Source: Flavobacteriales bacterium
GTDB taxonomy: Bacteria; Bacteroidota; Bacteroidia; Flavobacteriales; Flavobacteriaceae
DNA: 64,000 bases
NCBI GenBank assembly: GCA_027023475.1
Contig: JALVVJ010000180.1
Span: 8,889 to 72,888, forward strand
Reading direction: 5' to 3'
The position numbers and the translations under genes were made by a program. Positions 31,391 to 42,441 of this stretch are shown here, piece after piece. The number at the start of each line of letters is the position of its first letter. Position 1 is the stretch's first letter. The notes beneath the pieces are model-generated. The model saw only the letters and a program-made list of their open reading frames with translations, had not been told where the DNA came from and did not search any database.

Positions 31391-33190
31391 TTATGCTTTC
31401 ACCTGCATAAAATAGGCATCGATACTTTCGGCGGCATAAAAACCGTCGGCTATGGCCGAAATGGCATCCACACGGCCGTATTTTACCGCATCACCGCCGG
31501 CCCAAAGTTTGGGATAACCCGTACGGCGTTCGTCGTCCACTTTGATTTTTCCACGCTCGAAAGTCAAGCTGTTTTGAACCTTTTCGGGCAACAAACCGAA
31601 ATCGGCCTTTTGACCGATGGCGGCAATGATGCTATCGCACTCAATAACGGTTTCGCTACCTTTGATCGGCACCGGACGCGGACGGCCGCCGCCTTCGGGC
31701 GGAACCAGTTCGGCCCGCACATATTCCATGCCCTTAACGCGGCCTTTTTCGTCTTTGATCACACGTGTGGGGATGGCTTTTTCAATGATTTGAACGCCTT
31801 CTTCCAATGCGCCTTCGATTTCCTCGTCATCGGCCGGCATGTCTACAATACGACGGCGATACAATTGCACCACTTCGGCACCCAAACGACGGCTAACGCG
31901 CGAGCTGTCCATCGACACGTCGCCACCGCCTACAACTACCACGCGCTTGCCCATATCGGGCCGTTTGCCTTCGTTTACCAAGCCCAGGAAATCCACGGCG
32001 GCCCAAACGCCCTCGGCATCTTCACCTTCGATGCCCAAAGTGTATCCCTTTTGTAAGCCCACACCCATAAACACGGCGTCGTGCTTATTATAGATTTCAT
32101 CGAACGAAATATCTTTGCCCACTTTGGTGTTGAAATGAATTTTCACACCGATAGACTTCATATAATCCACCTGTTTTTGGATGCTGTCGTAGGGCAATCG
32201 GTATTTGGGAATGCCGTACATAATCATTCCGCCGGGTTCGCTCTTGGCCTCATAGATGGTGATGTCGTAACCTTTGAGCGCCAAATAGTAGCCGGCCGTA
32301 AGTCCTGCGGGTCCTGCGCCGATTATACCCACTTTGATGCCGTTGGGTTCGCGGATTTCGGGATTCACAATACGACGGATCATATCGGCGTTTTCGGCCC
32401 GTTCGGTAGCATAACGTTTTAGCCAACGGATGGCCACGGCTTCGCCGCGAACTTGAAGTGCACAGACATCCTCACACCGGCGTGTACAAACCTTGCCACA
32501 CATTTCGGGCAGGTCGTTATTGTCGTAAATGATACGAATGGCCTCTTCGTCGTCGCCACGCGAAATGGCGTTGATATATTCGGGAATGTGCATGTGCACC
32601 GGACAATTTTCGGTACACAAACCACAGGTGATACAACGCGATGCCTCGATGCGGGCTTCTTCCTCGGTGTAGCCCAAAAAGACCTCGGCAAAGGATTGTA
32701 CACGCTCTTCGGGCGGTAATTCGCGCATGGGCACCCGCTCGAACAGGTTGAGCGAAGTGTCGGTACTAGCGTCGAAAGTAATTTTATCTTTACCGCCGGG
32801 ATTATCTTTGCCGGGAATCATCAAAAAATCGAAGGCGTCTTCGGAAACTTTGATAAAATCGGCGGTCATGCTCAACGAACCCGAAGGGCACACATCCACA
32901 CACAACGCACAATAACAGCACCGGCCGTAATCGATGCGTGGACGCAGGCCGCTGTCGCCCGGTTTGCCTTCGATGTCTTCCACTTCCACCATGTCGATGG
33001 CTTCGTTCATACAAATGGTGGAACAATTGCCGCAGCCGATACACAGGTCCAAATCGTTGTAGTGAAATCCGCGGTAACGCTCGGATATTTCCTTGGTTTG
33101 GTCGGGATATTTGATGGTATGCGGCTCCTTGGCTATTTGTTTGAGTGCACCCAGGGGAACCAACAATCCTTTCAAATCGATAATGCTCAT
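31391..33190 (-). CDS. NuoI-like ferredoxin fused to GltD/NfnB-like NAD(P)H oxidoreductase
   Basis: 599 residues; last gene of the Mrp/Mbx-like operon. The N-terminal NuoI/MbhN-type domain has two [4Fe-4S] motifs: C50, C53, C56, C60 and C91, C94, C97, C101-Pro (with an extra Cys92). The GltD-type iron-sulfur region follows (C186, C189, C192, C196-Pro; C231, C235, C239, C243). Next is an FAD domain (VGIIGAGPAGLTAGYYLALKG, 287-307) and an NAD(P)H domain (VVVVGGGDVSMDSSR, 417-431, then YRRR, which favours NADPH). The C-terminal flavin motif is LWAGGDAV. The protein could pass electrons between NAD(P)H and the NuoB/C/D-like arm. Nfn-like flavin bifurcation is possible but unproven. Starts 12 bp after the NuoD-like gene. 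Confidence 0.9.
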   Translation of the reverse strand: MSIIDLKGLLVPLGALKQIAKEPHTIKYPDQTKEISERYRGFHYNDLDLCIGCGNCSTICMNEAIDMVEVEDIEGKPGDSGLRPRIDYGRCCYCALCVDVCPSGSLSMTADFIKVSEDAFDFLMIPGKDNPGGKDKITFDASTDTSLNLFERVPMRELPPEERVQSFAEVFLGYTEEEARIEASRCITCGLCTENCPVHMHIPEYINAISRGDDEEAIRIIYDNNDLPEMCGKVCTRRCEDVCALQVRGEAVAIRWLKRYATERAENADMIRRIVNPEIREPNGIKVGIIGAGPAGLTAGYYLALKGYDITIYEAKSEPGGMIMYGIPKYRLPYDSIQKQVDYMKSIGVKIHFNTKVGKDISFDEIYNKHDAVFMGVGLQKGYTLGIEGEDAEGVWAAVDFLGLVNEGKRPDMGKRVVVVGGGDVSMDSSRVSRRLGAEVVQLYRRRIVDMPADDEEIEGALEEGVQIIEKAIPTRVIKDEKGRVKGMEYVRAELVPPEGGGRPRPVPIKGSETVIECDSIIAAIGQKADFGLLPEKVQNSLTFERGKIKVDDERRTGYPKLWAGGDAVKYGRVDAISAIADGFYAAESIDAYFMQVKA

Positions 33191-33202
33191 GTCGTTCGGG
33201 TT

Positions 33203-34327
33203 TTAGCGTTCCATTTCGGGCGGACAAGCACCCAGTGAATTAAGAATAAAAGACACATCGGCAATATTTTGTCCGGGAAGGATTTTTTCCAGCACGCTGA
33301 TGCCGTGCGTGTAGGCGGCACCGCGCAGATGCACCCGCCGGGGTTTTTCGGTTCCGTCGCTCACCACATAAAAACCGATTTCGCCACGGACACTCTCGGT
33401 TTTCACCCAAGCTTCACCCGCCGGAAGGCGCCATTTCATCGGGTTGGGAATGCGGTTGTAGTAACTTCCGCCGGGCATTTTATCCAAGGCCTGACGGATA
33501 ATCCGAATGGATTGTTTGATTTCGTCGCGACGCACCAAAGCGCGCGCCCACACATCGCCTCCTTCGTAAACGGGAATGTCGAAATCCAGTTCGCCGTAGG
33601 CACAATAGGGCTCGTCTTTGCGCACATCGTTGCCAATGCCCGTGCCTTTGAGCGGCGGCCCCGTAACGCCCCATTCCAGGGCTTTGTCTTTGGGTATGAT
33701 GCCCACGCCTTGGGCACGTTTTTGGAAGACCGCATTGTCGAAAAGCAAGCGGTTGTAATCGTCCAAACGTTTTTCCAAATAATCCAGCACCCTGCGGGTT
33801 TTGTCGGCCCAGCCCTTGGGTAAATCGCGACGGACACCTCCGGGCCAGATATACATGTGATAAATACGTGCTCCCGTCAGGTCTTCGAACAAATCCAGGA
33901 TATAGTTCCTGTCGCCCACCGTCCATTGGCCCAAAGTATAAAGCCCGGCCGAACCCGCTTGACCGCCATACCACAACAGGAAGGACTGAATACGCGCCAA
34001 TTCGGCCACAATAGTGCGAATATATTTGGCCCTTGGCGGCACTTCACGCCCTTCGATGGCTTCCACAGCCCGGGCATAGGTGAGTTCCATAGGGTCGGGT
34101 TCGGGAACACAAAAACGGCATAGCAGCGTAAAGGATTGCAACCAATTACGTTGTTCAATAAGTTTCTCGAAAGCACGGTGCAAATAACCGATATGGGTTT
34201 CGGCCCGGACCACCGTGTCGCCCTCCACCAATAATTTGACCATCATGTTTCCGGTAATCCCCGGATGTTGCGGCCCGATAAACAGGGTGGTTTGTTTATT
34301 TCGTTCGCTTGTCGTTTTCATAATCAT
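33203..34327 (-). CDS. NuoD/MbxL-like 49-kDa subunit
   Basis: 374 residues, homologous to complex I NuoD and the large subunit of group 4 hydrogenases. IGPQHPGITGNMMVKLLVEGDTVVRAETHIGYLHRAFEKL is the family start. Further on are REVPPRAKYIRTIVAELARIQSFLLWYGGQAG, GVTGPPLKGTGIGNDVRK and KTESVRGEIGFYVVSDG. An N-terminal CxxC is kept (Cys70, Cys73 in LLCRFC), while the C-terminal pair needed for a NiFe centre is reduced to one Cys (LNSLGACPPEMER). It is therefore not a hydrogenase; this pattern is what I would expect of Mbx/MBS-type subunits. It starts next to the NuoC gene. Confidence 0.9.
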   Translation of the reverse strand: MIMKTTSERNKQTTLFIGPQHPGITGNMMVKLLVEGDTVVRAETHIGYLHRAFEKLIEQRNWLQSFTLLCRFCVPEPDPMELTYARAVEAIEGREVPPRAKYIRTIVAELARIQSFLLWYGGQAGSAGLYTLGQWTVGDRNYILDLFEDLTGARIYHMYIWPGGVRRDLPKGWADKTRRVLDYLEKRLDDYNRLLFDNAVFQKRAQGVGIIPKDKALEWGVTGPPLKGTGIGNDVRKDEPYCAYGELDFDIPVYEGGDVWARALVRRDEIKQSIRIIRQALDKMPGGSYYNRIPNPMKWRLPAGEAWVKTESVRGEIGFYVVSDGTEKPRRVHLRGAAYTHGISVLEKILPGQNIADVSFILNSLGACPPEMER

Positions 34328-34329
34328 GG

Positions 34330-34893
34330 TTAATCTCTCGAATATTTTCTAGCAAAATCAGGTAATTTTTCGCCGGTGCGGCGTGTGATATATTCGCGCA
34401 CACTCCAAGCATCTTCTCGGCCCGGACGGGTAGTGTAGGTGCGTTTTACATAGCCACGCGTGTCGAAATCCCGGCGCATAGGCGGTATTTCTTCCCATCC
34501 TTCCAAAATAAATTCACGTGGTGCTTCGAAACCGGGAAATTCAATGCCGAACATTTCGCGGATTTCCCGTTGGTAAGTGCGCATATGCGGCCAAAAGCCC
34601 TCCATATTTTCCATTTCGGGATGTTCGCGGTGGATTTTGGTTTTGACCAAAACCGTCAGCTGGTCTTGTGGCCGGTAAACGATGTAAACAAGTTCAAACA
34701 CATTTTCTTCTATCCAATCCACACAGGAAACATGGTCCAGGTGAATAAAACCCCATTGATTTTTCAGGTATAATAAAACCGGTGCAACTTGTTTTTTGTG
34801 CATCGAAACACGAATTTGATTGCCATGTAACACTTCGGCTTTCAGTTCAAAAGTTTCGTTCAATGCGCGAATAATATCTTGTGTGGTCATCAT
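34330..34893 (-). CDS. NuoC/MbxK-like 30-kDa subunit
   Basis: 187 residues. Matches the NADH dehydrogenase 30-kDa family: DWIEENVFELVYIVYRPQDQLTVLVKTKIHREHPEMENMEGFWPHMRTYQREIREMFGIEFPGFEAPREF, whose REIREMFGIEFxG element is the family signature (pieces at about residues 55-125). The tail, with RGYVKRTYTTRPGREDAWSVREYITRRTGEKLPDF, is typical of stand-alone versions. It forms the peripheral arm with the NuoB- and NuoD-like subunits. Spaced 2 bp from the NuoD gene and 10 bp from the NuoB gene. Confidence 0.92.
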   Translation of the reverse strand: MMTTQDIIRALNETFELKAEVLHGNQIRVSMHKKQVAPVLLYLKNQWGFIHLDHVSCVDWIEENVFELVYIVYRPQDQLTVLVKTKIHREHPEMENMEGFWPHMRTYQREIREMFGIEFPGFEAPREFILEGWEEIPPMRRDFDTRGYVKRTYTTRPGREDAWSVREYITRRTGEKLPDFARKYSRD

Positions 34894-34903
34894 CCCTTTA
34901 TGT

Positions 34904-35551
34904 TTACCAATTATATTCGTCGGGGAAATCCCAATTTTTGATTACCTTTTGCTGATTGGCACGATACCAATCCAGGTTTTTACGGTAGCACTCGCCGTTT
35001 CCGGCGTTTCCGTTTTGGATCAATTCCTGCAACTTGGCAAATCCTTTGAGTACGGCCTCGGGCCGCGGCATACATCCCGCGATATAGACATCTACGGGAA
35101 TATAACGATCCAAGGCCTTGATGGTGTTGTAGCTGTCGAAATACATGCCTCCGTTGATGGTGCACGAACCGAAGGCCACCACATATTTGGGGTCTTGCAT
35201 TTGTTCGTAAACGCGAATAACGCGTTTGAGCGTTTTGGTGGACAAATAGCCCGTGATCATCAGCACATCGGCTTGGCGCGGTGTGGCCGCACCACGAATA
35301 CCCAAACGTTCGGCATCGTAGCGCGAAGTGAGCGTAGCGGGAATTTCGATGGCGCCGCAGCCGGTTCCATAGGCCAAGAGGAATAAGGAATGTTTACGCG
35401 CAAAATTCAGAATGTATTGCACCATTTTTTGGGTTTCCTTGTCATTGACACGTCCGGCCGCCGTACAACGCGGCGCAAAATCGATTTGGGCCTGCCGTAT
35501 TTGTTCCTTGGTAGGCCGTGTGATGATGCGTATATCTTTGGTTTCCGACAT
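34904..35551 (-). CDS. NuoB/MbxJ-like subunit with altered cluster N2 site
   Basis: 215 residues, family of the 20-kDa subunit that carries the final [4Fe-4S] cluster (N2) before the quinone or substrate site. LFLLAYGTGCGAIEIPATLTSRYDAERLGI replaces the usual tandem Cys-Cys (complex I) or CxxC (group 4 hydrogenases) with one Cys followed by Gly. The other ligands are present: FGSCTINGG and VYIAGCMPRPEAVLKG. An extra Cys29 precedes (FAPRCTAAG). Whether the cluster has three Cys ligands, or Cys29 or another residue serves, cannot be told. It sits between the NuoH- and NuoC-like genes in the operon. Confidence 0.9.
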   Translation of the reverse strand: MSETKDIRIITRPTKEQIRQAQIDFAPRCTAAGRVNDKETQKMVQYILNFARKHSLFLLAYGTGCGAIEIPATLTSRYDAERLGIRGAATPRQADVLMITGYLSTKTLKRVIRVYEQMQDPKYVVAFGSCTINGGMYFDSYNTIKALDRYIPVDVYIAGCMPRPEAVLKGFAKLQELIQNGNAGNGECYRKNLDWYRANQQKVIKNWDFPDEYNW

Positions 35552-35572
35552 GGTCGATTGTTTTTTTATTGA

Positions 35573-36529
35573 TTATTTCCAAAATACCGCCCAAATGATA
35601 CCCAATGCACCGAAAAGCAAAGGCCAACGCCAAAAGAAACGCACGGCCTGCTCGGTGCGGAAGCGTGGCATCACAATGCCTATGCTCACAGGTATCATAT
35701 ACAACAGGAATGTTTTTATGACCAATTCCACCAACCCCAACAACACGCCTGCGGCTCCCGTGTATGCGTCCGGATGGCCGGCTCCACCCAGGAATAAATC
35801 GGTGATTAATACCAATTTGACAAAGGCAAAAATGGAACCTCCGGTCATCAACGAACCCAAATATTTCCCGCCGAATTCCGACATAGGTCCCGAAGCCAAT
35901 TCGGCCGGTGCCCCGATAATGTCAAACGGCGAATAGTGGAACATGCCCAACACCGAAAATAAGGCCGCCAAAAACGCAAAAGGGTTCTCACGGGCTATCC
36001 AATGTCCCGTAGCTTGCTGATAGTGCATCAAATCCGTCAGCGAAGTGGTGTGAAACTGAATCATTATGGCCACCAGTGACAACACAAAAGGAATTTCGTA
36101 ACCCGTAATCAAGGACAAACCCCGCGATACCCCTATGGCACCGTTGGGATTTCCCGTTTCGCCCACACCAAGTGCCATGCCCAACGAACCCATCACCATC
36201 AGGTAGAGCAAGAAAATCAAATCGCCTTTGAACGTGAAGTTGGGAAACCACAACCCACCGTGCAAAACAGGAATAAACAGCAGAGCCGTAATGGCGGCCA
36301 CCAAAACCCATACGGGCGCTAAATGGGTCATCAACCCATGGGTTACATTGGTGGTTTTGCCTTGCAATTTGAGCAAGTCCAAAAAATTCTGGTAAACAGG
36401 TGGTCCTACACGGTTTTGGGCCCGCGCAATAACTTTGCGGCGCAAACCGCCATAGAACATTCCCACGGTAAAGGCCAACAAGGCCGTAAGCACAATGCCC
36501 GTCAATTCGATTAACCAATTCCCCGTCAT
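35573..36529 (-). CDS. NuoH/MbxM-like membrane subunit
   Basis: 318 residues, about eight membrane helices; the NuoH family. The signature loops are GGLRRKVIARAQNRVGPPVYQNFLDLLKLQ near the N-terminus, SLGMALGVGETGNPNGAIGVSRGLSLITGYEIP, and HYSPFDIIGAPAELASGPMSEFGGKYLGSLMTGG (about 195-230), with charged residues facing the cavity. In complex I it holds the quinone channel and passes the redox signal to the antiporter-like subunits. The gap of 21 bp to the NuoB-like gene and 3 bp from the antiporter-like gene keeps it inside the operon. Confidence 0.93.
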   Translation of the reverse strand: MTGNWLIELTGIVLTALLAFTVGMFYGGLRRKVIARAQNRVGPPVYQNFLDLLKLQGKTTNVTHGLMTHLAPVWVLVAAITALLFIPVLHGGLWFPNFTFKGDLIFLLYLMVMGSLGMALGVGETGNPNGAIGVSRGLSLITGYEIPFVLSLVAIMIQFHTTSLTDLMHYQQATGHWIARENPFAFLAALFSVLGMFHYSPFDIIGAPAELASGPMSEFGGKYLGSLMTGGSIFAFVKLVLITDLFLGGAGHPDAYTGAAGVLLGLVELVIKTFLLYMIPVSIGIVMPRFRTEQAVRFFWRWPLLFGALGIIWAVFWK

Positions 36530-36532
36530 AGC

Positions 36533-38374
36533 TTAAAATATATAATTACGAAACAGGATTAACAAAACAACAAATATGATAACATACATTGCGTAGGTTT
36601 GTGCGTTGCCGGTGTAGATTTTACGAATAAACCCAAAAAAGGCCTCCAATGCCGCCCCGATGTCTTCCCACAATTGATCCATACTCGATCGATACAAGCG
36701 TCCGACGGCCCGTTCAAAGGGTTGGAAAAATCCCCTTTGGAAAGTACAATTATCCTCCGGCGCAGGTATTTCGCCCGAAGTGGAAATTTCTTTGGTGGTA
36801 AGCCAGCGGGTGTTTTTCTTTCCTTTGAAAGTGATAAACAAGGCCCATAGCACAAACAAAATACCCACCGTGCTTCCTACGGTAAACACATCGGTTTGGT
36901 TGCCCCATACGTTGGACAAAATGCTCATATCCCATTGGCCTGCGGGCAAACCGATACTCTCCAAGGCGCGGGCTGCCGGACGGAATATCAGGCCGGGATA
37001 CATCCCCGTAACCACGCTCACCGCCGAAAGGGCCAGCATGGGAATCAGCATCCACCAAGAAACTTCGGTAATTTGTTTGGCTTCCTCTTCTTCTTGACCC
37101 AAAAACAATCCGAACAAGAACCGGTAGGAATACAAAAAGGCCGATGTGGACGCAAAGAAAATCAAAATAACCAGGAAATATGCGTGTGTTTCGGAAATCA
37201 AACTTTCGTAAAGCAACCATTTGCCCACAAAACCACCCAATGGCGGAATACCTGCCAGCGAAATAATGGCAATCAAGGCAGTAAGAAACGTCCAAGGCAT
37301 GCGTTTTATCAATCCCGAAATACGGCGGAAATCCGTCGTGCCGGCTTGTTTTTCCACGGCACCTGCCACCATAAACAACGAACCTTTGAATGCTGCATGC
37401 AAGAGTGCCAAATACAAAGCGGCCATCAAGCCCAAACGCGTTCCGGTGGAAACGGCTGTTACAATGTAGCCCAACTGTGCCACCGACGACCAGGCCAATA
37501 AATCCTTGGCATCATTCTGCCTGATGGCTTGCAAGGTGGCCCAGGCCGCCGTCAAGCCGCCCAACCAACCCAAAACCCAACGAACAAGTGTTAATTCCCA
37601 TCCGGTAGCCGAACGGAAAATGCCGGTCAAAATCAACAACATTCCCAATATGCCCATCTTGGACATGGCTCCCGAAAAAACGGCCGTAAACGACATGGGT
37701 GTTTTGGGATAAACGGCCGGCGCCCACACGTGAAGCGGAAGCACAGCGGCCTTAACAGCAAATCCCAAGAGCAACAAAACGGGAATATACCAGTTGCCGG
37801 ACGAAAAACGGAATGCCCCTGCTGCCATCAAATCGCTAAACTCCAAGCTATGATATTGTCCCAAAGCCAACACGATGGCCGTGAGCATGGCATATGCCCC
37901 GATGGCACTGAAAATAATATATTTGATTCCCTTGGTTTCCACACCATAGTAGGCATTGTATATGGCCAGCAAAAAGGACGTCCAGGTCATGATTTCCCAG
38001 AAAATGAAAAATGATAACAAATCCTTACTCACGGCCACTCCGAACATACCGGCCACACTGGTCAGGAATGATGCATAGAAATAGCCCTGACGTGCTTTGC
38101 CTTCCATATATTTGACCGAATACATCAAAGCCAAGGCCGAAAGACCCAATACAATCCAAGCAAAAAACCCGGCTAAGGCATCCGTTTCCCAGTGCATCGA
38201 AAAGCCCAATATCCGCCAACGGACAATTCCGCCTGGTAAAAAGGCGAAAGCGGCCGCGGCACCAAATCCGGCCAACATAGCCACCGGCCCCGTCCATTTG
38301 CGGTTTAAGTCATCGACGAAAAAAGCCGCCAAAGCCCCGATGATCAAAATCCCCAAAACGTATATGATTCCCAT
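36533..38374 (-). CDS. Antiporter-like subunit 2 (NuoL/MbxH' type)
   Basis: 613 residues with 14 or more membrane helices. ISKDLLSFFIFWEIMTWTSFLLAIYNAYYG carries the key Glu of TM5, and HVWAPAVYPKTPMSFTAVFSGAMSKMGILGMLL the Lys of TM7/8. The extended C-terminus (about 500-613; a charged stretch ending EAFFGFIRKIYTGNAQTYAMYVIIFVVLLILFRNYIF) fits a lateral amphipathic helix plus a final membrane helix, as in NuoL and in the second antiporter-like subunit of MBS. A second antiporter-like subunit distinguishes Mbx/MBS from MBH. The first 31 codons of the longer frame overlap the previous gene and lack a good signal, so I start at ATG 38374. Confidence 0.88.
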   Translation of the reverse strand: MGIIYVLGILIIGALAAFFVDDLNRKWTGPVAMLAGFGAAAAFAFLPGGIVRWRILGFSMHWETDALAGFFAWIVLGLSALALMYSVKYMEGKARQGYFYASFLTSVAGMFGVAVSKDLLSFFIFWEIMTWTSFLLAIYNAYYGVETKGIKYIIFSAIGAYAMLTAIVLALGQYHSLEFSDLMAAGAFRFSSGNWYIPVLLLLGFAVKAAVLPLHVWAPAVYPKTPMSFTAVFSGAMSKMGILGMLLILTGIFRSATGWELTLVRWVLGWLGGLTAAWATLQAIRQNDAKDLLAWSSVAQLGYIVTAVSTGTRLGLMAALYLALLHAAFKGSLFMVAGAVEKQAGTTDFRRISGLIKRMPWTFLTALIAIISLAGIPPLGGFVGKWLLYESLISETHAYFLVILIFFASTSAFLYSYRFLFGLFLGQEEEEAKQITEVSWWMLIPMLALSAVSVVTGMYPGLIFRPAARALESIGLPAGQWDMSILSNVWGNQTDVFTVGSTVGILFVLWALFITFKGKKNTRWLTTKEISTSGEIPAPEDNCTFQRGFFQPFERAVGRLYRSSMDQLWEDIGAALEAFFGFIRKIYTGNAQTYAMYVIIFVVLLILFRNYIF

Positions 38375-38387
38375 AATTTTTTTTCTT

Positions 38388-39869
38388 TTAGGATAAATGA
38401 AGCACGGTTTGAATATAGGTTTGTTTATCCAGCAGGAACATACTTGCCCTGTGCAAGAACCCGGCAATCAGGTCGGGATATAAGCCCAACACGATGATTA
38501 ATACGGCCAACGAAGTCATGGCCACCAAGGCCTGAATGCTCGGTTTGTGCGAAGCGGGCTCGCTTTCTTCCTTGGCAAAATAGATCCGCCCGATGACCCG
38601 CAGATAATAAGTCATCTCGATAACGGTTACGGCCAAAATGCCAATAATCAACGGCATCATTTGCTTGGCTCCCGCCGCTGTAAGGATGTAAAACTTACTC
38701 CAAAAACCCGAAAAAGGCGGAAAGCCCACAATGGCCAAGGCCCCCAAGGCAAACAGGAACGAAACATAGGGCAAACGCTTATGAATACCGTTGAGCGCAC
38801 GCAATCGTTTGTCATTCAGATTGTAAATAAAATAACTCCCCGTCATAAAAAGCAAGCTCTTGATGATGGCATGGTTAATAATCAAAAACAAGGCGCCGAA
38901 CAAAGCCGCTTCGCTACCTATCCCGAAAGCAATCATAGCCAACCCCATTTGCCCCATACTGGAATAGGCCAACATTCTTTTAAGGTTGGTTTGAGTAATA
39001 GCCGCCATTTCGGCAAACAACATGGTCAAAAAGCCCATCGCAATCAGAAATCCCGATACGGTTCCGTGGTCATATAACGTAAACCCTACCCGCGCCAAAG
39101 CATAAATGGCCGCCACGCCCAACACGGCGGCAAAAGCGGCGCTCGTGGGCGAAGGTGCTTGTGAGTAAGCATCGGGCGCCCAGCCGTTGAGCGGAAACAT
39201 TTCGGCTTCGGTGCCCAGGGAAATCAACAGGAATATCAAAGCCGTAACTTTTACGCCCGTAGCCACCGCAGGCATTCGCTCGGCGATTTGGGCCATATTC
39301 AAACTACCCGTTTGCGTATAAATCAACAAAATGCCCAATAGCAGGAAAACCGATGCCATACTACCCAACAGCATATATTTGAAGCCCGCCTCGGCACCGT
39401 CGCGGTCGCGATAAAAGGCCGTGAGTGCGATGGCCGTAATACCGGTAATCTCCACAAACACAAACATATTGAACAAATCCCCGGTGAGGATAATGCCCAG
39501 CGAACCGGCCGCCATCATCATTTGCAAAATCTCGTAATACATCACCACCCCGCCCTTCAAGCTCCGCTTGAAACGGAAGCCGTATAGCCAAATCACAAAG
39601 GCCATAAACGACACCAGCATCACCAAAACGGCCGAAAAAGGCGTCATCACCAGGTTGATACCGAATGGCGGTTTCCAACCGGCAATCACTTCAACGATGG
39701 GGCCGCTACGAAAAACACGGTTCACCAATATCCACGAAACCGATAAATTATACAGGAAAACCACGCCGGGCACCACACGGGCGGCATCCCGATACAATTT
39801 GTTGAGCAAAGGTATCAGGAAAGCGGCCGCCAAGGGCGCGGCAATCAGATGAACGGGACTTACTACCAT
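38388..39869 (-). CDS. mrpD: Antiporter-like subunit 1 (MrpD/MbxH type)
   Basis: 493 residues, about 14 membrane helices; family of Na+/H+ antiporter subunit D and NuoN. FNMFVFVEITGITAIALTAFY contains the conserved TM5 Glu. GWAPDAYSQAPSPTSAAFAAVLGVAAIYALARVGFTLYD and AYSSMGQMGLAMIAFGIGSE are the channel loops, and the C-terminal helices end with LLDKQTYIQTVLHLS. It moves H+ or Na+ across the inner membrane. Its start overlaps the MrpC gene by 7 bp. Confidence 0.92.
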   Translation of the reverse strand: MVVSPVHLIAAPLAAAFLIPLLNKLYRDAARVVPGVVFLYNLSVSWILVNRVFRSGPIVEVIAGWKPPFGINLVMTPFSAVLVMLVSFMAFVIWLYGFRFKRSLKGGVVMYYEILQMMMAAGSLGIILTGDLFNMFVFVEITGITAIALTAFYRDRDGAEAGFKYMLLGSMASVFLLLGILLIYTQTGSLNMAQIAERMPAVATGVKVTALIFLLISLGTEAEMFPLNGWAPDAYSQAPSPTSAAFAAVLGVAAIYALARVGFTLYDHGTVSGFLIAMGFLTMLFAEMAAITQTNLKRMLAYSSMGQMGLAMIAFGIGSEAALFGALFLIINHAIIKSLLFMTGSYFIYNLNDKRLRALNGIHKRLPYVSFLFALGALAIVGFPPFSGFWSKFYILTAAGAKQMMPLIIGILAVTVIEMTYYLRVIGRIYFAKEESEPASHKPSIQALVAMTSLAVLIIVLGLYPDLIAGFLHRASMFLLDKQTYIQTVLHLS

Positions 39870-40255
39870 CGCAATCGATTTAATTGTTCCACATTGGCCG
39901 TTTTATGATGCCGGTAAAGCCGGATAACCAACGAAAGTGCCAAAGCCGTTACCGCAAATCCGATAACAATGGCCGTCAATACCAGCGCCTGCGGCACCGG
40001 ATCCACCATTTTATCCGCCGCCGTTTCAAAGCCGGGCGAAAATATAGGCGCCGTATGATTCGTAACATATCCCACGCCCACAAAAAGCAGGTTTACACCC
40101 GAATCGATCAACGACAACCCGATAACCAGTTTGACAAGGTGTTTTTTGACCAACACGGCATAAAGCCCGATAAGGATCAGCGCCACGGCCGAACCGTAAA
40201 CAATAATTTCCAACAGCGGGCGGTATTGCGAAATAATTTCTTGGTAATTACTCAT
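39863..40255 (-). CDS. mrpC: MrpC/NuoK-like subunit
   Basis: 130 residues with three membrane helices. VYGSAVALILIGLYAVLVKKHLVKLVIGLSLIDSGVNLLFVGVGYVTNHTAPIF and DPVPQALVLTAIVIGFAVTALALSLVIRLYRHHK match MrpC/MbhG, homologous to NuoK. It overlaps both neighbours, MrpB (8 bp) and MrpD (7 bp), so these three are translated together. Confidence 0.93.
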   Translation of the reverse strand: MSNYQEIISQYRPLLEIIVYGSAVALILIGLYAVLVKKHLVKLVIGLSLIDSGVNLLFVGVGYVTNHTAPIFSPGFETAADKMVDPVPQALVLTAIVIGFAVTALALSLVIRLYRHHKTANVEQLNRLRW

Positions 40256-40994
40256 TGCGTCGCGGTTTGGTATGAAGCAAAGTATCCAACACGTTCGTGA
40301 GCTCGGTGCCCACTTTGATGCCGATAAATATGTAAATGAGCGGAATTAATCCCCCGCTTATCAAATCGTTCAAACGGCCCGTCCAACCCGTGTTTTGCAA
40401 GAACGAACCGTAGCTAATCAAGCCGTAAACGCCGGTCAGCACAAAAGCCAATCCCGATAAACTTTCCAACCAAATCAACACATTGTGATTAACGTTAAAC
40501 CGCTTGTAGGTGATAAACATCAGCAAAAATCCCGTGGCAATAATGGCCCCGCCCTGAAATCCACCGCCGGGCGTCAGATGCCCGTGAACAAACACATAGA
40601 TACCCAGCATCAAAATAAGCGGAAACAGGATTTTGGCCCCCGTGCGCACCAACACGGACGACGGCAATTGAATGCGTTGCGGTAAATGGCCCTTTTCGGC
40701 GGCTTCCTCTTCCTCCTTGCGGCGGTAAAGAATACTGGCCAATCCCGTAGCGGCCAAAAACAACACGGTAACTTCGCCCAGGGTGTCGAAACCCCGGAAA
40801 TTGACCACAATGGCCGTAACACTATTGGCCGTGTGTAAAGTTTCGGGCGAATGTTTCAGGTAAAAAGCCGACACACTTTGCGGATTTTCCACATCGCCGA
40901 TACGGTTTTGCCCGAAGGGCGCTTGCCGGAAGGCCTCGTAAACGGCCACTCCCAACACCAAGAGCAGGAAAACGACAAAACTGCGCTTAATCAT
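40248..40994 (-). CDS. MbhE-MrpB fusion subunit
   Basis: 248 residues. The N-terminal part (MIKRSFVVFLLLVLGVAVYEAF...SVTAIVVNFRGFDTLGEVTVLFLAATGL, with the conserved FRGFDTLGE motif) is the MbhE/NuoJ-like module. From about residue 110 the protein is MrpB-like: FPLILMLGIYVFVHGHLTPGGGFQGGAIIATGFLLMFI...GGLIPLIYIFIGIKVGTELTNVLDTLL. In many Mrp systems the first module is part of MrpA; here it is joined to MrpB. It overlaps the next gene by 8 bp and the previous one by 4 bp. Confidence 0.9.
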   Translation of the reverse strand: MIKRSFVVFLLLVLGVAVYEAFRQAPFGQNRIGDVENPQSVSAFYLKHSPETLHTANSVTAIVVNFRGFDTLGEVTVLFLAATGLASILYRRKEEEEAAEKGHLPQRIQLPSSVLVRTGAKILFPLILMLGIYVFVHGHLTPGGGFQGGAIIATGFLLMFITYKRFNVNHNVLIWLESLSGLAFVLTGVYGLISYGSFLQNTGWTGRLNDLISGGLIPLIYIFIGIKVGTELTNVLDTLLHTKPRRNE

Positions 40995-41281
40995 TCCTTT
41001 TCGGTTTTAAAACGGTTGATCATATCCTCGGAATACTTGTCCTCGTCGCGGGTGGTATTCCGTATGGTGATAATAAAGATGATGGTGGTCAGTGCAATGC
41101 CGATGGCCGCTTCGGTAATGGCCACATCGGGTGCTTGCAGCAGGTAAAAAAACACCGACAAGGCCAAGCTAACCACACCCGTGGCCAGCACGGCATAGAG
41201 CAAATCCTTCTGAATGGTGGCATAAACGGCCGCCGCCAGCAAAACCACCGCCAAAACCACCAAGAGTATAAGCAAAATCAT
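40991..41281 (-). CDS. DUF4040/MbhD-like subunit
   Basis: 96 residues, three short membrane helices: VVLAVVLLAAAVYATIQKDLLYAVLATGVVSLALSVFFYLLQAPDVAITEAAIGIALTTIIFII. APDVAITEAAIG is the MbhD/DUF4040 signature, equivalent to part of the MrpA C-terminus and NuoJ. The stand-alone form and the separate MbhE-MrpB fusion show that no full-length MrpA is made here. Overlaps MrpG by ATGA and the fusion gene by 4 bp. Confidence 0.92.
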   Translation of the reverse strand: MILLILLVVLAVVLLAAAVYATIQKDLLYAVLATGVVSLALSVFFYLLQAPDVAITEAAIGIALTTIIFIITIRNTTRDEDKYSEDMINRFKTEKE

Positions 41282-41655
41282 AGCGTCGATTTTTCGGTTT
41301 CGCGTGCTTTTTCCGCCGCCACTTCCTCGGCATAAGCATCTTCACCGCCTTCTTTCAAAAAAGGTTTTACACCGCTGCGGTGCGATGCCCGGGCCAGGGC
41401 GTGCGAACTCAACGGGTTGGAAAAAGCGATGAACAGCACGATGATAAACAACTTGACAAACCACTGCGGATGCACCAAGCCCACGCCCAAAATGGTGCTC
41501 ATTGCGCCCAAAGTGCTGGCTTTGGTGCCCGCTTGCAAGCGGTTATACAGGTCCGGCATACGGTAAATCCCCAGGGCACCCAAAAACAGAAACACGCTGC
41601 CCAAAAGTATCAGGAAAAGACCGGCGTAGTAAAGGATGTCGAAAATCCAATTCAT
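41278..41655 (-). CDS. mrpG: MrpG-like subunit
   Basis: 125 residues. Three membrane helices with LLGSVFLFLGALGIYRMPDLYNRLQAGTKASTLGAMSTILGVGLVH, the MrpG/MnhG signature (GIYRMPDLYNRLQAGTK). A charged C-terminal tail (KEGGEDAYAEEVAAEKARETEKS) follows. The ATG at 41655 gives the normal N-terminus; the longer frame begins inside MrpF. It is followed by the DUF4040 gene with an ATGA overlap. Confidence 0.93.
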   Translation of the reverse strand: MNWIFDILYYAGLFLILLGSVFLFLGALGIYRMPDLYNRLQAGTKASTLGAMSTILGVGLVHPQWFVKLFIIVLFIAFSNPLSSHALARASHRSGVKPFLKEGGEDAYAEEVAAEKARETEKSTL

Positions 41656-41668
41656 AACACAAAGTTTA

Positions 41669-41929
41669 TTATAGCGCCCTTTCGATAAACCGGGCGATAA
41701 CGATGATTCCGATAAATCCCAGCACGGCATACACCAGGGCCAGGTCCACATAGATATACCGGCCGAAAACATAGGCCAGCAATACCAATCCGGCAATTCC
41801 GATAACCGACAGCGTGTCGGTGGCCACCGCGCGGTCGGCCGCGGTGGGTCCTTTCACAAAGCGCATCAGGCCCAGGAACAAGCCCAGCCCGATAAAAAAC
41901 AAAGCAATATTGATTACCATAGCAGTCAT
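41669..41929 (-). CDS. mrpF: MrpF-like subunit
   Basis: 86 residues. MTAMVINIALFFIGLGLFLGLMRFVKGPTAADRAVATDTLSVIGIAGLVLLAYVFGRYIYVDLALVYAVLGFIGIIVIARFIERAL is the classic MrpF layout (three helices; KGPTAADRAVATD as signature). The ATG at 41929 overlaps the stop of the MrpE gene (ATGA). It is the second gene of the operon. Confidence 0.93.
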   Translation of the reverse strand: MTAMVINIALFFIGLGLFLGLMRFVKGPTAADRAVATDTLSVIGIAGLVLLAYVFGRYIYVDLALVYAVLGFIGIIVIARFIERAL

Positions 41930-42441
41930 TCCCCGTAGATTTTCAAAAGTATGCGTTCGAACGGCCAAGCCACTTCGCGGTAAACGGCATCGGGCTCGGT
42001 GGTTTTTACATCAATCCAATGAATGTAGTAGGTATCGTCCACCACATCCACGGTCAGTGTTCCGGGCGTGAGCGTGATGCTGTTGGCCAGCACCATACGG
42101 GCAAAGCGGTTTTTGAGCCGTGTTTTGAACTTTACCACACCCGGATTGATGGGCAATTGCGGACTCAACACCCGGCGGGCCACGTCAAAGTTGGCCTTGA
42201 CCAGCGCCACCAGGAAAACAAAAAAGTAGGCCACAAACCAAACGACGTGTTTGGGCGCAAAAAGTATCGGGTCGCAGCATTCGAAGTAGCGCACCGTTAC
42301 AAACGAAATAAGCGCCGCCACCACGGCACCCGTTATCCATTCGGCCGGTTGCAAACTGGTGGTAAATCCATACCATAGCAACCATATAATCAGGAAGGTA
42401 TAAAGGTAGCGCGAAACGGACGGCTTCCGGGAAGTGTTCAT
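41926..42441 (-). CDS. mrpE: MrpE-like subunit, first gene of the operon
   Basis: 171 residues. Two to three membrane helices at the N-terminus (YLYTFLIIWLLWYGFTTSLQPAEWITGAVVAALISFVTVRYF, VWFVAYFFVFLVALVKANFDVARRVLSP), then the hydrophilic MrpE signature KTRLKNRFARMVLANSITLTPGTLTVDVVDDTYYIHWIDVKT. Promoter and operon start lie here: the -7 element TAGTTTTG is at 42458-42465. All 13 genes downstream to 31391 run in the same direction with short gaps or overlaps (largest gap 21 bp), so they are one transcription unit. Confidence 0.93.
   Translation of the reverse strand: MNTSRKPSVSRYLYTFLIIWLLWYGFTTSLQPAEWITGAVVAALISFVTVRYFECCDPILFAPKHVVWFVAYFFVFLVALVKANFDVARRVLSPQLPINPGVVKFKTRLKNRFARMVLANSITLTPGTLTVDVVDDTYYIHWIDVKTTEPDAVYREVAWPFERILLKIYGE

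Follow-up and report, generated by a model that had tools for sequence, protein, structure and literature searches.

A GltD-fused complex of the MBS type in a Flavobacteriales genome, a candidate NADPH-fed sulfane reductase

MBS is regarded as a link among Mrp antiporters, hydrogenases and complex I, and is fed by ferredoxin. In MBS both quinone residues are gone from the counterpart of the complex I quinone chamber, and polysulfide is split by the proximal three-cysteine cluster itself, which acts as catalyst (PMC7684303). A bacterial homologue, the MBX of Thermotoga maritima, has 13 subunits, is sulfur-induced and has been proposed to use ferredoxin (PMC9431562); mbx had earlier been described as a twelve-gene operon from Thermococcales (PMC2246101), and a sulfur-induced bacterial MBS has been reported from strain 3DAC (PMC10356935). 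Here we describe a related operon that ends in a ferredoxin-GltD fusion, found in a 64,000-nucleotide stretch (the window) of contig JALVVJ010000180.1 from a Flavobacteriales bacterium. The encoded complex is neither complex I nor Nfn; it is a GltD-fused complex of the MBS type, a kind already known from Thermotoga by its gene content. The evidence inclines us, with modest confidence, to regard it as an NADPH-fed, ion-pumping sulfane (polysulfide) reductase.

The operon occupies positions 31391 to 42441 of the window on the minus strand and consists of one run of 13 genes, with intergenic spacing of -8 to +21 bases when the likely starts are used. From upstream to downstream the order is MrpE, MrpF, MrpG, MbhD, an MbhE-MrpB fusion, MrpC, two antiporter-like subunits, NuoH-, NuoB-, NuoC- and NuoD-like subunits, and a fusion of 599 residues:

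41926..42441, minus strand: MrpE-like subunit, 171 residues (PF01899, MNHE, 3.4e-42)
41669..41929, minus strand: MrpF-like subunit (PF04066, 5.2e-17; likely start ATG 41929)
41278..41655, minus strand: MrpG-like subunit (PF03334, MnhG, 4.2e-25; TIGR01300 above cut-off; likely start ATG 41655)
40991..41281, minus strand: MbhD/DUF4040 subunit (PF13244, 4.9e-19)
40248..40994, minus strand: MbhE-MrpB fused subunit (PF20501 and PF04039, MbhE and MnhB)
39863..40255, minus strand: MrpC/NuoK-like subunit (PF00420, Oxidored_q2, 1.4e-29)
38388..39869, minus strand: MbsH-like antiporter subunit, 493 residues (Proton_antipo_M; top PDB match 6u8y_H, 4.8e-91)
36533..38374, minus strand: MbsH'-like antiporter subunit, 613 residues (Proton_antipo_M; top PDB match 6u8y_X, 1.2e-75; likely start ATG 38374)
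35573..36529, minus strand: NuoH/MbsM-like membrane anchor (NADHdh; top PDB match 6u8y_M, 4.5e-48)
34904..35551, minus strand: NuoB/MbsJ-like subunit with cluster cysteines C65, C130 and C160 (Oxidored_q6; top PDB match 6u8y_J, 1.1e-63)
34330..34893, minus strand: NuoC/MbsK-like subunit (PF00329, Complex1_30kDa, 1.2e-23)
33203..34327, minus strand: NuoD/MbsL-like subunit (Complex1_49kDa; top PDB match 6u8y_L)
31391..33190, minus strand: fusion of a ferredoxin and a GltD/NfnB-like part (Fer4_20, Pyr_redox_2, two CxxCxxCxxxC motifs)

An earlier note on this DNA had proposed this operon, and the open reading frames (ORFs) and Pfam domains bear the proposal out once some starts are corrected. New starts were assigned to MrpF and MrpG, the two of the 13 genes that needed them, and to the second antiporter; the MrpF ORF had been listed from TTG 41968, and its likely ATG at 41929 overlaps the MrpE stop.

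In comparisons with PDB sequences, five subunits (NuoD-, NuoB- and NuoH-like and both antiporters) all matched the MBS of Pyrococcus furiosus (6u8y) best. The NuoD-like subunit matched chain 6u8y_L at 5.7e-110, compared to 1.3e-76 for the best complex I chain (2fug_4) and 3.5e-39 for MBH. The membrane arm is likewise of the MBS type, with Mrp-like subunits, two antiporter-like subunits and an MbsM-like anchor, and the subunit set with its two antiporter-like members, the loss of the quinone residues and the three-cysteine proximal cluster are all shared with P. furiosus MBS. The principal difference is that the ferredoxin subunit MbsN is free-standing and ferredoxin-fed in MBS, whereas its counterpart in the window is fused to a GltD domain. 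The four NiFe cysteine ligands of group 4 [NiFe] hydrogenases are absent: like MbsL, the NuoD-like protein has one cysteine of the L1 type and one of the L2 type. In a NuoD tree of 83 rows from MBX, MBS and complex I, with MBH rows left out, every MBX or MBS row was separate from the two complex I rows with support of 100/99. Branches to the complex I rows, MbsL, L046, L092 and L095 are long, so that the deep position of single rows of the NAD type (see below) is unsure. The kinship to MBS/Mbx and to the Thermotoga family suggested in the earlier note is thus upheld by the PDB matches, this tree and the T. maritima match given below, as is its placing of the subunits outside complex I.

Related loci were collected by scanning genome contigs with NuoD patterns, which gave at least 580 stretches with at least 564 relatives, of which the best 80 were retained; L037 is the same contig as L014, and the examined set is 80 distinct loci (79 plus L014). 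Together with the window these loci provided 81 rows for residue counts. The counterpart of Nqo4 His38, one of the two quinone residues, was lost in all 81 (Thr in the window), and the counterpart of Nqo4 Tyr87 was Val in all 81, the window included. The latter position sits within one of the two NuoD patterns used to find loci, which 49 rows carry, and the 32 rows that lack that pattern provided a free test; all 32 also had Val. Both His38 and Tyr87 are retained in a Nuo paralogue on another contig (C173) of the same genome. Two leftover cysteines of the MbsL type, C73 (RFCVPEPD) and C368 (CPPEMER), are both present in the window.

In the NuoB-like subunit, C65, C130 and C160 were cysteine in every row without a gap at the position (79 rows, references included). 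The tandem cysteine pair of complex I NuoB occurred in no MBX row; the C173 paralogue agrees with complex I in its quinone residues and tandem cysteines. Cys25 of MbsJ, which is kept but unused in MBS, is Gly in the window; the position was Cys in 20 of 20 rows with an NAD-type fusion, in 3 of 33 with an NADP-type fusion and in 2 of 13 with ferredoxin only. The three-cysteine cluster of the MBS type, the lost quinone residues and the division of the family into NADP and NAD types described below go beyond the earlier note.

Residues ~1 to 130 of the fusion are a NuoI/MbsN-like ferredoxin with two [4Fe-4S] clusters, for which the best match among NuoI-like chains was 6u8y_N (4.7e-22). Residues ~150 to 599 are GltD/NfnB-like, with two further [4Fe-4S] sites and sites for FAD and NADP(H). 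An AlphaFold2 model of the fusion, built with 46 sequences from the window and the loci, had a mean pLDDT of 91.4 and a pTM of 0.86, with lower values over the first 40 residues. Structure searches spanned residues ~146 to 599, and the ferredoxin part was judged by sequence; residues 146 to 596 of the model matched the L subunit of P. furiosus NfnI with a Z score of 47.1 and a root mean square deviation of 1.8 over 439 aligned residues, and Foldseek likewise ranked NfnI first. The glycines of the FAD and dinucleotide sites are conserved and the window retains an RR pair, in agreement with the intact FAD and NAD(P)H sites of the earlier note.

The fusion scored 646.7 bits against NF010590 (PRK13984) over model positions 8 to 608 of 611, below the cut-off of 946; it is therefore a homologue of NF010590 that is not assigned to that equivalog. 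The NAD(H)-type fusions of L077 and L095 came closer to the cut-off (798 and 839 bits). Homology of the fusion to T. maritima and NF010590 is full-length, and T. maritima gave the sole match among 14 control genomes, above the cut-off. We take the T. maritima fusion to lie within its MBX operon, and reviews from the Adams group reportedly note that the Thermotoga cluster contains a GltD-like gene. No discussion of a GltD fusion in MBX was found in excerpts of the open-licence literature. An assembly artefact was considered and rejected, because searches of other genomes found the fusion in 58 of the 80 distinct loci, and four further genomes of the genus also have it.

StnC of Sporomusa provides a guide to the flavin site. 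It has a GltD domain that does not bifurcate electrons, and a ligand of its FAD-proximal cluster is Lys170, where NfnB has Glu (PMC10482914). Lys170 aligns with Lys258 of the fusion; all 58 rows that extend to this position have Lys there, and two NfnB sequences have Glu. The flavin-site Arg of NfnB (R201; R239 in StnC) was retained in 57 of 57 rows and does not discriminate. Because Lys, as in non-bifurcating StnC, replaces the Glu of NfnB, bifurcation of the Nfn kind by the fusion is disfavoured, judging from the alignment. StnC of the Sporomusa ovata StnABC complex shares with the fusion a GltD-like NADPH domain as electron input and the Lys at the FAD-proximal cluster, but it bears a NuoG-like part and partners a HydBC-like bifurcating module. 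The own genome had no Complex1_51K domain, which StnB presumably holds, and thus no sign of a StnAB (HydBC-like) module. NfnB (NfnL) shares with the fusion its fold, its FAD and NADPH sites and the R201-type Arg; it differs in its proximal-cluster Glu and its partner NfnA, whereas the fusion has Lys and no NfnA-like gene was found among the operon genes.

In NfnB the extra phosphate of NADPH is bound by two conserved arginines (PMC6405883). The RR that follows the second Rossmann strand of the fusion is taken as this pair. It was present in 37 of 57 rows, including the window (NADP(H) type), and the remaining 20 had L plus E or Q (NAD(H) type). Glu at this Rossmann position is the usual mark of NAD(H) binding. 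The two states required two changes on the NuoD tree; one branch, with support of 100/99, united four rows of unknown state with 17 of the 20 rows of the NAD type, fourteen from Pseudomonadota and three from Spirochaetota. Thus, we infer a non-bifurcating input like that of StnC and two nucleotide versions of the complex, neither of which was found in the same literature excerpts.

GltD-fused MBX complexes are probably widespread across bacterial phyla. The fusion occurred in 58 of the 80 distinct loci, 14 had a ferredoxin alone and 8 had neither; the loci are those most like the query, and 58 of 80 is not a natural frequency. One of the 14 (L027) ends 556 bases past NuoD, which leaves 13 that are ferredoxin-only. 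Among the 8 with neither, four end 2 bases past NuoD, and L070, L080 and L034 end 236, 404 and 558 bases past it. Three loci fit poorly: L034, with no ferredoxin match in its 558 bases; L087 (labelled Thiomargarita), with neither fusion nor ferredoxin found in 3229 bases after NuoD; and L080 (also labelled Thiomargarita), in which an MbsL-like NuoD was found without any other cluster gene beside it. Labels of fusion carriers include Bacteroidota, Chlorobiota, Neomarinimicrobiota, Spirochaetota, Cloacimonadota, Fermentibacterota, Aminicenantes, WOR-3, Hydrothermota, Bipolaricaulota, Acidobacteria and Pseudomonadota; ferredoxin-only clusters are labelled Campylobacterota, Chromatiaceae and DHVE2 archaea. 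With MbsL scored as ferredoxin-only and unknown rows excluded, fusion and ferredoxin-only states required three changes on the tree, so that gain or loss of the GltD module happened on more than one occasion. No separate GltD gene was found within the flanks examined of the 13 ferredoxin-only clusters.

In 49 of its 58 loci the fusion started between -60 and +1600 bases relative to the end of NuoD. The stop-to-stop frames overlap in the other nine, eight of which still have the fusion as the gene following NuoD, L084 being the exception. The nearest named relative among the loci listed is L018, from a metagenome-assembled genome (MAG) labelled Flavobacteriales, with 86% identity over the NuoD-like protein.

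The own genome comprises 2.29 Mb in 197 contigs and is about 95% complete. Its second Complex1_49kDa protein, the paralogue mentioned above, lies in a separate Nuo cluster on C173, which the contig end cuts; nine genes were read there from ORFs (NuoA, B, C, D, H, I, J, L and M), with no E, F or G. The earlier note had described NuoE, F and G as absent. This held for the operon, and PF01512 (Complex1_51K, the NuoF-type domain, also of the RnfC type) had no match in the genome; NuoE and NuoG models were not searched genome-wide. The sole Molybdopterin-family protein found is PsrA-like rather than NuoG. Its best PDB match was 2vpw (1.6e-181), titled thiosulfate reductase, and it scored 452 bits against NCBIfam PhsA, below the cut-off of 694. 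We take 2vpw to be the polysulfide reductase of T. thermophilus.

In L018, the next ORF of more than 100 residues after the fusion is PhsA/PsrA-like and begins like the PsrA-like protein of the window organism. Among 119 near relatives, which the PsrA and MBX searches are both taken to cover, eight had MBX matches at 1e-150, the window's own included. PsrA-like genes (E<=1e-90) were found in 7 of these 8 and in 8 of the 111 others (Fisher 8.6e-7, kinship uncorrected), and the one MBX carrier without such a gene is a genome that is 68% complete. Within the genus, PsrA-like genes were found in 5 of 5 MBX carriers versus 1 of 4 others (0.048, likewise uncorrected for kinship). A CoA-disulfide reductase was sought in the own genome and rejected; the model gave five matches, all under the cut-off, namely dihydrolipoamide dehydrogenase-like, thioredoxin reductase-like and hydroxyacyl-CoA dehydrogenase-like proteins, the fusion itself and one unread protein on C181.

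From the gene set, homology, residues, conservation and tree we infer an electron path, a substrate, pumping and an ion to be pumped. NADPH would hand a hydride to the FAD of the GltD-like domain, from which single electrons would pass through the two GltD clusters, the first with its Lys ligand, and the two ferredoxin clusters to the three-cysteine [4Fe-4S] cluster of the NuoB-like subunit. There, in the counterpart of the complex I quinone chamber, the cluster would cleave the S-S bond of polysulfide or another sulfane, and loops of the chamber would drive ion movement through the Mrp-like arm. By analogy with MBS, it is possible that reduced ferredoxin could also enter directly.

Residues of the antiporter subunits speak against pumping in just the way of MBS. 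E140, E221 and K392 of the MbsH-like subunit and E128, K209, K240 and K386 of the MbsH'-like subunit coincide with residues named for MBS, but the central MbsH lysine (see below) is lost. The window also has Leu where MBS has MbsH H330 and MbsH' H336, and a His follows four residues later. In eight loci (L057, L059, L061, L062, L072, L078, L083 and L093) the two antiporter subunits are apparently one ORF of ~980 to 1160 residues.

Several observations weigh against an NADPH-fed, pumping sulfane reductase. The NuoD-like protein exceeded the NCBIfam NuoD cut-off (PRK06075, 433 versus 360 bits) and the NuoB-like protein exceeded those of two NCBIfam NuoB models, so that automatic annotation would label both as complex I subunits. 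Not every row keeps the two leftover cysteines of the MbsL type (C73 was present in 74 of 81, C368 in 69 of 78), and the three-cysteine cluster does not fix the substrate. MbsH Lys250 is replaced by Val252 in the window; this central lysine position was K in 31 of 40 rows, V in 4 (the window, L018 and the same-genus genomes of L121 and L122), E in 4 and T in 1. With Val there, one of the two proposed pumps may be weak, silent or working differently in the window lineage. The two COX1 proteins of the own genome mean that sulfur cannot be the organism's only acceptor. The PsrA-like neighbour in L018 is one case, in which the contig end cuts the gene, and the association of PsrA with MBX ignores kinship, five of the eight MBX positives being from one genus. 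Occurrence is also sparse close to home: 395 genomes of the own phylum gave 5 matches at 1e-100, 2 of them full-length (one the window's own), and the fusion-type MBX is patchy within the genus (5 of 9 genomes). We know of no activity for any GltD-fused complex. One survey concluded that the Mbx-like (Hyf-like) clusters found in non-sulfidic bacteria are not sulfur reductases (PMC4053972).

Four other functions for the complex were considered. It is unlikely to be an ion-pumping ferredoxin:NADP+ oxidoreductase, an NADP analogue of Rnf in which reduced ferredoxin would feed the iron-sulfur chain and the GltD domain would make NADPH. The genome probably makes reduced ferredoxin (four POR-domain matches), has one NqrB/RnfD-type protein and gave no match to the RnfC/NuoF-type domain and no other GltD-like protein when searched with the fusion, and P. 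furiosus Mbx has been termed a ferredoxin:NADP+ oxidoreductase (PMC6349859). However, this route would skip the NuoB/NuoD chamber, the loops of which are considered to link redox chemistry with pumping in MBS (PMC7684303), and the three-cysteine site and MbsL-type features are nonetheless conserved. Distinctly unlikely is a complex that works in reverse, above all in sulfur oxidisers, with the ion gradient pushing electrons from sulfane or sulfide sulfur to NAD(P)+. In the window organism the nucleotide site is of the NADP type, a PsrA-like protein is present and no NIR_SIR/Dsr protein was found, although many names in the main branch of the NAD(H) type are, as we take them, those of sulfur oxidisers (Sedimenticola, Thiodiazotropha, Parasulfuritortus, Thiohalocapsa and tubeworm symbionts). 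The putative Mrp-Mbx of the Riftia symbiont adjoins genes of the reductive tricarboxylic acid cycle in co-expression, its function or direction being listed as unknown (PMC11636981); direction is not readable from sequence.

Electron bifurcation of the Nfn kind built into the Mrp complex, at which the earlier note hinted, is very unlikely. The GltD part is nearest NfnB in fold and keeps the R201-type Arg, but StnC lost bifurcation and yet keeps this Arg (PMC10482914), and the fusion has the Lys of StnC in an operon without an NfnA-like gene. A complex I that reduces quinone and takes in NADPH through an alternative module is the least probable of these functions, and highly improbable, even though the architecture is complex I-like and the NCBIfam NuoD and NuoB models match: the quinone His and Tyr and the tandem cluster cysteines are gone, the tree places the protein outside complex I, and the genome holds a separate Nuo cluster. 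Recruitment of NuoEFG from elsewhere in the genome was rejected as far as tested, on the lack of PF01512, the lost quinone residues and the tree position.

An NADPH-fed sulfane reductase of the MBS type would have consequences beyond this genome. With its built-in NAD(P)H module, the superfamily would have gained pyridine-nucleotide input by a second means alongside NuoEFG, and its occurrence in many phyla could add an unrecognised route joining NAD(P)H and the sulfur cycle. More tentatively, and with considerable doubt, GltD-fused MBX may form a widespread class of ion-pumping NAD(P)H:sulfane oxidoreductases, with an NADP(H) version that uses sulfur as a sink for NADPH in Bacteroidota and elsewhere, and an NAD(H) version reversed in sulfur-oxidising Pseudomonadota, where the ion gradient would drive electrons from sulfane sulfur to NAD+ without quinone.

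Many record names of the loci, as read, point to vents or sulfur bacteria. L036, labelled Sulfurovum, has a NuoD within the Bacteroidota branch beside a Saprospiraceae MAG, which could reflect faulty binning or recent transfer. No gene was common to all flanks. One flank family occurred at 12 fusion loci (L033, L066, L068, L074, L076, L077, L079, L082, L086, L088, L089 and L090); its L079 member, the only one scanned, is the next ORF after the fusion and is rubrerythrin/ferritin-like. Another occurred at 9 loci and had a DHO_dh-like member in L031, again the only one scanned. In a third (L049, L059, L061, L092, L095 and L096) the scanned L059 member is the redox-sensing repressor Rex.

A genome of the same order (G463) has two fusion-type MBX clusters (L119 and L120), one window-like and the other remote, with an antiporter ORF of 1044 residues. 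None of the inserted ORFs of 110 to 140 residues seen in relatives was found within the window operon. Such ORFs lie between operon genes in L121 and L122 (genomes G400 and G398; several in L122) and at 8941-9291 of L120, and resemble four-helix-bundle proteins of the S23/IVS type.

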